A stretch of DNA of 49,771 bases, from positions 1 to 49,771 of the forward strand of contig JAQWZC010000109.1 in the NCBI GenBank assembly GCA_029253645.1. The letters run 5' to 3'. Source of the stretch: Alphaproteobacteria bacterium (GTDB taxonomy: Bacteria; Pseudomonadota; Alphaproteobacteria; RS24). The notes beneath the pieces are model-generated. The model had not been told where the DNA came from, did no database searches, and saw only the letters and a program-made list of their open reading frames with translations. Shown here piece after piece: positions 31,562 to 34,168 of this stretch (its first letter is position 1; each line of letters starts with the position of its first letter). The translations under genes were made by a program, and so were the position numbers.

Positions 31562-32743
31562 CTAATCCTGTTTAAAATGTTTCGACAATTTCAGGCCTTG
31601 CGCCTGATAGTTGGATTTCAAATCCGCGCCGTAAAGCATATGCGGCACATCCGTCAGGCGCTCATAAACCAGCCGCCCGATAATTTGTCCATGTTCGAGA
31701 ATAAACGGCACTTCGCGCGAGCGCACTTCCAACACGGCGCGCGCGCCGCCCTTGCCGTCGCGGCCCTTGCCACCGGCTTCAGCAGCGCCAAAGCCCGGGT
31801 CAAAAAATCCAGCATAATGCACGCGAAACTCACCGACCAGCGGATTAAACGGCACCATTTCAGCGGCGTGAGTGGGTGGAATGGTGACCGCTTCACGCGA
31901 TGCCAGAATATAAAACTCATCCGGGTCGAGCACAATTTCATCAGCCGCATCGCGATAGACCGGCTCCCAATATTGCGCCACCGGCAATTGCCCGGGCTTA
32001 TCGACATCAATCAGTCCGGCATGACGTTTGCCGCGATAGCCGACGAGACCGGATTTGGTATCGCCCAGCAAATCAATCGACACGCCCAGCCCGCCATCAA
32101 TATTGGCCACGCCATCGACCAAGCCAATATCATCATGCAGACGTTTCAGCTCGGCATCATTATGCGCAGCCGCGCCACGGCGAAAACGCAATTGCGACAG
32201 GCGCGAGCCTTCGCGCACCAAAATCGGGAAGGTGCGCGGGCACACTTCCAAATAGAGATGACCCTTATAACCCGCCGGAACAATATCAAAGGCCGTGCCG
32301 AAATCGGTAATCAGCCGCGTAAACACATCAATGCGGCCGGTCGAACTTTTCGGATTGGCAAAGCCGGCCGTGCGCTCGGGCAGATTGACCGCCTCCATGA
32401 GCGGCACTAAATACACGCAGCCCGTCTCCAGCACCGCGCCTTGCGATAAGTCGATTTTATGATAAGCGCGCGCCGCCAGCTTATCGGAAATCGTGCCTTT
32501 TTCACCGGGCAGAAAACTGGCGCGAATACGATAGGCGACATCGCCCAATCTGAGGTCGAGGCTGGCCGGTTGTATCTGGTCGTCCAACACGCCGCCCGAT
32601 GCCCAAATTTGTTTTTCGCGCACCATGTTTTGAATGCCATGGGCGGGCAAAATGCCGACCGCATGGGTTTGGCCTTTGGTCATCACCGGTTCTTGCCCTG
32701 CTTCTTCGGGAAACAGCGCGCCTGTTTCGGCACCATCACTCAT
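31562..32743 (-). CDS. dcd: 2'-deoxycytidine 5'-triphosphate deaminase, long form
   Basis: 393 residues, about twice the E. coli enzyme; an alphaproteobacterial form with a tandem dUTPase-like fold. The first half contains QIQPASLDLRLGDVAYRIRA and NPKSSTGRIDVFTRLI, and the second half starts near residue 200. It deaminates dCTP to dUTP for dTTP synthesis, matching nrdAB as a dNTP-supply gene. The start at 32743 has GAGGCG upstream, though an ATG 20 codons in is possible. lldD follows by 4 bp. Confidence 0.9.
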   Translation of the reverse strand: MSDGAETGALFPEEAGQEPVMTKGQTHAVGILPAHGIQNMVREKQIWASGGVLDDQIQPASLDLRLGDVAYRIRASFLPGEKGTISDKLAARAYHKIDLSQGAVLETGCVYLVPLMEAVNLPERTAGFANPKSSTGRIDVFTRLITDFGTAFDIVPAGYKGHLYLEVCPRTFPILVREGSRLSQLRFRRGAAAHNDAELKRLHDDIGLVDGVANIDGGLGVSIDLLGDTKSGLVGYRGKRHAGLIDVDKPGQLPVAQYWEPVYRDAADEIVLDPDEFYILASREAVTIPPTHAAEMVPFNPLVGEFRVHYAGFFDPGFGAAEAGGKGRDGKGGARAVLEVRSREVPFILEHGQIIGRLVYERLTDVPHMLYGADLKSNYQAQGLKLSKHFKQD

Positions 32744-32853
32744 TTTCGCGCCTCATATGGCGCTTTTCGAATCTCAATCATGGGCCGGAGTTTACGCTTA
32801 AAATGCCCTCATGTCTTGACGCGGAGACAGTTTTTCGACATGTTCTCCTCAAT

Positions 32854-32912
32854 CGAGGTGATTTGGGCCGGCTGGCTTGCGGCCTCGTTAAATAAACAGC
32901 TAAAATCGCCGG
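32854..32912 (+). ncRNA. SAM-II riboswitch (metA motif)
   Basis: The conserved elements are in order: CGAGGTGATTTG, CTTGCGGCC (consensus CTTGCAGCC), and CAGCTAAAATCGCCGG. Stem P1 is CGAGG 32854-32858 with CCTCG 32883-32887. The pseudoknot is CCGGC 32868-32872 with GCCGG 32908-32912. A TTGACG at 32816-32821 with a weak CATGTT 17 bases on may be the promoter. SAM-II binds S-adenosylmethionine and turns down methionine genes in alphaproteobacteria; metZ follows at 32981. Confidence 0.93.
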
Positions 32913-32919
32913 AGGGAAC

Positions 32920-32942
32920 CCGGCCTCTTGGTCGGTTTTTTT
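32920..32942 (+). terminator. Intrinsic terminator after the SAM-II riboswitch
   Basis: CCGGCC 32920-32925 pairs with GGTCGG 32930-32935 (one G-U pair) around TCTT, followed by seven T. The 5' arm CCGGC (32920-32924) can instead pair with GCCGG (32908-32912), the 3' strand of the riboswitch pseudoknot. The two pairings exclude each other, giving an antiterminator without SAM and a terminator when SAM locks the pseudoknot. This is inferred from base pairing. Confidence 0.75.
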
Positions 32943-32980
32943 ATGCCGGTTACACATAAAGGGTCACGCAGGAGACGATT

Positions 32981-34168
32981 ATGACCGAGAAAAAGAAATG
33001 GCAAACGCAAACGCGCATGGTGCATGAGGGCGGTATGCGCTCGCCTTTTGGTGAGACCGCAGAGGCGCTTTATCTCACTTCGGGCTATGTTTATGACAGT
33101 GCCGAGCAAGCCGAGGCGCGTTTTAACGAAGAAGAAGACGGCTTTATTTATTCGCGTTTCGGCAATCCGACCGTGCGCGCTTTTGAAGAACGCATGATGG
33201 CGCTGGAGGGCGCAGAGGATGCGCGCGCCACCGCCACCGGCATGGCCGCCGTGACCGCATGCATGATGAGCCAGCTTGAGGCCGGAGACCATATTGTCGC
33301 CGCGCGCGCGCTATTCGGCTCGTGCCGATATGTGGTGGAAACACTCATGCCGCGCTTTGGCGTCGCCTGCACTTTGGTAGATGGGCGCGACCTTGAGGCA
33401 TGGCAAGCCGCGCTGCGACCGGAAACCAAAATCCTGTTTTTGGAAACCCCGTCCAATCCGCTGCTGGAAATCATCGACATTCAGGCGGTGGCCGATATTG
33501 CCCATAATCATGGCGCGCAATTGGTTGTCGATAATGTGTTTGCGACGCCGGTTTTGCAAAAGCCGCTAACCTTGGGCGCGGACATCACGATTTATTCCGC
33601 GACCAAACATATTGACGGGCAAGGCCGATGCCTTGGCGGCATTATTTTGGGCCGTCAGGATTATATCCAAGACCGGTTGGCGGTTTTTATGCGCCAAACC
33701 GGCCCCAGCCTCGCGCCGTTTAATGCTTGGGTGATGTTGAAAGCGCTGGAGACTTTGCAATTGCGGGTCGATGCCCATTGCGATAATGCCGAAAAATTGA
33801 CGCAAACGCTGGTGGCGCATGAGCAAGTCGCGGAGGTTTATTATCCGCATGATAAAAACCATCCGCAATATGCGCTGGCGCAAAAGCAAATGACCCGTGG
33901 CTCAAACCTTATCGCCTTTAATCTAAAGGGCGGCAAAGCCGATGCGTTTAAGCTGGCCAATGGGCTTGAGATTGCGCTTATCTCCAATAATCTGGGCGAT
34001 GCGAAAACCCTCATTACCCATCCGGCCACCACCACCCACTCAAAATTGAGCGACGCGGCCAAGGCCGAGCTGGCCATTACCGGCGGTACATTGCGCGTTT
34101 CGGTCGGGCTTGAGGATGGCGATGATTTACAAAATGATTTTGAGCAAGCCTTGGCCAAATTGGGTTAG
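32981..34168 (+). CDS. metZ: O-succinylhomoserine sulfhydrylase
   Basis: 395 residues, PLP enzyme of the Cys/Met metabolism family. The PLP lysine is K209 in YSATKHIDGQGRCLGG, a sequence typical of MetZ; Y57-S-R binds the neighbouring subunit's cofactor phosphate. It makes homocysteine directly from O-succinylhomoserine and sulfide. AGGAGA precedes the ATG. It is controlled by the SAM-II element just upstream and leads into apaG. Confidence 0.94.
   Translation: MTEKKKWQTQTRMVHEGGMRSPFGETAEALYLTSGYVYDSAEQAEARFNEEEDGFIYSRFGNPTVRAFEERMMALEGAEDARATATGMAAVTACMMSQLEAGDHIVAARALFGSCRYVVETLMPRFGVACTLVDGRDLEAWQAALRPETKILFLETPSNPLLEIIDIQAVADIAHNHGAQLVVDNVFATPVLQKPLTLGADITIYSATKHIDGQGRCLGGIILGRQDYIQDRLAVFMRQTGPSLAPFNAWVMLKALETLQLRVDAHCDNAEKLTQTLVAHEQVAEVYYPHDKNHPQYALAQKQMTRGSNLIAFNLKGGKADAFKLANGLEIALISNNLGDAKTLITHPATTTHSKLSDAAKAELAITGGTLRVSVGLEDGDDLQNDFEQALAKLG

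Follow-up and report, generated by a model that had tools for sequence, protein, structure and literature searches.

We found that a SAM-II riboswitch very probably controls metZ by transcription attenuation, turning the gene off in the presence of SAM. In the window (the whole stretch of 49,771 nucleotides that was analysed, to which all positions refer), we observed the aptamer and two mutually exclusive pairings of its pseudoknot strand, which are conserved and co-vary; metZ follows downstream, and its ribosome site is free of both structures.

Aptamer and gene context

A SAM-II riboswitch had originally been predicted at 32854-32942, with an Infernal search against the Rfam SAM-II family as its check. 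cmscan bore this out by matching SAM_alpha (RF00521, SAM-II) on the forward strand at 32845-32924 with 61.3 bits and an E value of 1.9e-11, against a gathering cut-off of 36 bits. The match spanned the full model (positions 1-79 of 79) and was the only SAM-II copy in the genome assembly; a search of the window for a tandem SAM-V or any further Rfam riboswitch gave nothing above the respective cut-offs. In the Rfam alignment, P1 was formed by CGAGGU (32854-32859) and GCCUCG (32882-32887), with compensatory changes in the family at two of its pairs. The 5' strand of the P2 pseudoknot, CCGGC (32868-32872), lay inside the P1 loop, and sequence, folding and family pair counts all placed its 3' strand, GCCGG, at 32908-32912. 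The predicted aptamer (32845-32924) would be expected to bind SAM.

The aptamer was located upstream of a methionine/SAM biosynthesis gene, metZ (32981-34168, forward strand), the regulated gene, which encodes an O-succinylhomoserine sulfhydrylase of 395 aa (NCBIfam TIGR01325, 551.6 bits, cut-off 510). PS1-clade and Rhodobiaceae MAGs and isolates supplied the closest named relatives of metZ, which points to a marine alphaproteobacterium belonging or close to the PS1 clade as the source of the window. A likely promoter (32816-32844, forward strand) consisted of a -35 element TTGACG (32816-32821), a 17-nt spacer and a weak -10-like CATGTT (32839-32844). This promoter was not listed by the automatic promoter scan; its position fits that of SAM-II promoters, which usually lie just ahead of the aptamer (PMC1273637). 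The stretch CTTGAC...TTTTTCGACATGTT upstream of the aptamer was largely preserved in the same genus, and transcription would likely start near 32851, just before P1. Divergent to metZ, a gene for a 2'-deoxycytidine 5'-triphosphate deaminase (31562-32743, reverse strand; PRK07559, 563 bits) had its intergenic region in common with the riboswitch promoter.

Immediately downstream of the seven T of the terminator, an ATG opened a frame of 13 codons (32943-32984) that overlapped the metZ start as ATGA. It was considered as a leader peptide and rejected, for the frame was broken in relatives of the G008 type and the ATG was missing in the G010 relative; the frame probably arose by chance.

Terminator and antiterminator

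An intrinsic terminator was present between P2 and the open reading frame (32920-32942). It comprised a 6-bp stem-loop, CCGGCC-UCUU-GGUCGG (32920-32935, -9.5 kcal/mol), which was conserved in the family, and a U tract of seven T (32936-32942), which was kept in the same genus and where the attenuated RNA is expected to end. The 5' arm of this terminator, which the 3' end of the aptamer match overlaps, can pair with the P2 3' strand to the exclusion of the alternative pairings. The resulting antiterminator hairpin, GCCGG-AGGGAAC-CCGGC (32908-32924), had an energy of about -9 to -10 kcal/mol and showed a compensatory change in the family, and its pairing co-varied across alphaproteobacteria. The original prediction had GCCGG pairing either with CCGGC in the aptamer loop or with CCGGC in the terminator arm (32920-32924); both were confirmed as possible pairings, and every position and sequence it gave, including the seven T, was exact.

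These pairings suggest the following course of events. Without SAM, GCCGG (32908-32912) would pair with CCGGC (32920-32924) as the latter leaves RNA polymerase, so that the 5' arm of the terminator would be occupied and metZ would be transcribed by read-through. When SAM is bound, the P2 pseudoknot would keep GCCGG on the aptamer loop; CCGGCC would thereby be freed to pair with GGUCGG, and transcription would stop within the U tract, near 32942, to give an attenuated RNA of roughly 90 nt. Termination in the cell and its SAM dependence are what we infer from this arrangement.

The leader was folded with and without the pseudoknot constraint, a check that had been proposed. Since ViennaRNA cannot treat pseudoknots, a block on the P2 strands stood in for the SAM-bound state. 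When P1 was held, the antiterminator reached a probability of 0.99 once base 32924 was available; when the P2 strands were blocked, the terminator reached 0.99 once 32935 was available. The energies of the two hairpins were nearly equal (-8.8 to -9.9 kcal/mol for the antiterminator, -9.5 to -10.5 kcal/mol for the terminator). For the full-length RNA without ligand, the terminator was favoured at equilibrium (0.92 unconstrained, 0.67 with P1 held), which weighs against attenuation, and a working switch would therefore depend on the order of co-transcriptional folding. In these models such dependence agrees with an attenuator, SAM dependence entering through the assumed constraints. Folding the entire leader by free energy alone gave no useful signal (z -1.27).

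Mononucleotide shuffles of 32913-32980 (20,000 in all) served as a chance control for the hairpin and T tract. Of these, 0.005% contained a hairpin with a stem of 6 bp or more and, after it, seven or more T in eight positions, and 0 of 20,000 gave such an element with an arm complementary to GCCGG. Chance was excluded for the terminator layout because the same layout was conserved in relatives, and this conservation is stronger evidence than the shuffles against a chance origin of the hairpin and T tract.

Conservation and co-variation

Relatives of the same genus (a PS1-clade genus) that have the aptamer also had a hairpin and T tract much like those here, and the layout was kept in most of the family. 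Four members of the family (L009, L010, L011 and L019) had an intact aptamer with a shortened terminator stem, and three of them, L010, L011 and L019, a broken T tract as well. In these four the terminator is weaker or lost; attenuation there may be less strong, or expression may be controlled by another type of platform.

Pairs were counted in a family alignment of 20 sequences, leaving out four same-genus sequences whose P2 strand had been shifted by one base by MAFFT. Paired cells amounted to 99.2% in P1, 99.0% in P2, 100% in the terminator and 98.0% in the antiterminator, and P1 and P2 showed changes on both sides. In one genus the same position was changed in all three competing strands: C to U in the loop, G to A in the P2 strand and C to U in the terminator arm. 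As a result, the P2 pair went from C-G to U-A, the antiterminator pair from G-C to A-U, and the terminator pair from C-G to U-G. P2 and the antiterminator were thus preserved by compensation, and the terminator retained a U-G pair. This three-strand change is probably a single event of limited weight.

We extended the comparison to about 100 alphaproteobacterial SAM-II leaders in which P2 could be located, a set made up of the family, named metZ loci and high-scoring matches from across the class, and hence not an unbiased sample. A terminator lay downstream in 60 of these leaders, and in 31 of the 40 distinct combinations of P2 and arm, a helix of 5 bp or more can form between the arm and its own P2 strand. 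Watson-Crick helices between arms and their own P2 strands averaged 3.88, compared with 3.45 (sd 0.12) after permutation, and none of 5000 permutations reached as high a value, relatedness among the sequences being ignored in this comparison. Outside the family, the arm followed P2 strands of other sequence, as with GGTCGG and CCGATC in Parvibaculum relatives. Many metZ SAM-II leaders from further afield (Hyphomicrobium, Ancylobacter and others) gave no terminator in the scan; named metZ loci of this kind included L053, L057-L059, L064, L071, L074-L076, L083, L089 and L100. This suggests that lineages differ in the type of platform that they use for metZ.

Alternative explanations

The aptamer might instead act on translation by hiding a ribosome site, the terminator-like hairpin being incidental. 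The crystallised metX SAM-II has been described in this way (PMC10907184), and a Shine-Dalgarno-like GGAGGG (32911-32916) does fall partly within P2. However, the Shine-Dalgarno sequence of metZ, AGGAG (32970-32974), is not in P2; it lies 57 nt further downstream, outside both alternative structures. Furthermore, no in-frame start codon was conserved after GGAGGG, as several relatives in the genus lack the frame from ATG 32943 or have it interrupted, and the hairpin with its seven T was conserved and far above chance. We therefore consider control of translation very unlikely. A real terminator that does not respond to SAM and keeps basal read-through constant is slightly less probable again. 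At the metA SAM-II switch of S. meliloti, a downstream terminator of this kind has been reported (PMC9373788), and equilibrium folding favoured the terminator with or without the pseudoknot; yet a terminator that ignores SAM would not need a 5' arm that is complementary to, and co-varies with, the P2 strand.

A further alternative retains attenuation and changes the antiterminator, which would be formed by the aptamer loop GGCCGG (32866-32871) and the arm CCGGCC (32920-32925) in place of the P2 3' strand. In the window's own sequence this was the strongest duplex (-14.1 kcal/mol), since CCGG is self-complementary and occurs in both strands. In the family, however, only 85% of its cells were paired and no compensatory change was seen, and most arms of the Parvibaculum type matched the P2 3' strand over 6 bp (one of them G-U) as against 3-4 Watson-Crick pairs with the loop, so that we regard a loop antiterminator as the least probable of these alternatives. 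Starting from the preferred reading, attenuation through the P2 3' strand, the near-equal hairpin energies could be taken to make the PS1-clade switch a purely kinetic and unusually finely balanced SAM-II attenuator, with a role of its own for the RNA of about 90 nt; we give this very little credence.

Comparison with known SAM-II systems

The original prediction contrasted SAM binding that frees a terminator with SAM-II switches usually being described as acting on ribosome access. As to the mechanism, the anatomy, the conservation and the three-strand co-variation support it, but the implied surprise did not stand, since the founding paper of 2005 (Corbino 2005, PMC1273637) already described terminators downstream of SAM-II. 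The ribosome-access view derives from metX, the member whose crystal structure was solved (PMC10907184); it is current for metX SAM-II and some others, but only for those. The S. meliloti (Sinorhizobium meliloti) metZ switch is described as acting through a terminator (PMC9373788).

That switch, described in 2022, concerns the same gene and the same predicted SAM-driven terminator; a small RNA of about 100 nt (RZ) is reported to accumulate there under high SAM (PMC9373788), compared with the roughly 90 nt expected here, the two systems being likened by description. In the tandem SAM-II/SAM-V arrangement of marine bacteria, the SAM-II unit is the half that controls a terminator (PMC9481103); those hosts are likewise marine alphaproteobacteria with SAM-II acting via a terminator, whereas here SAM-II stands alone. 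The switch at 32854-32942 provides a clean terminator-type SAM-II example from a small-genome marine lineage, with competing pairings that co-vary, and a comparative data point in which three competing strands can be traced across families. It leaves the picture of SAM-II function unchanged. The SAM-II switches with terminators reported earlier (PMC1273637; Barrick and Breaker 2007, PMC2258182) share with it the aptamer family, an alphaproteobacterial host, a methionine-pathway gene, a terminator between P2 and the open reading frame, and the same OFF-switch logic, and nothing of substance differs here except the species. Together, the arrangement has been known for SAM-II since 2005, and the metZ leader is a clean further example of it in a new species.
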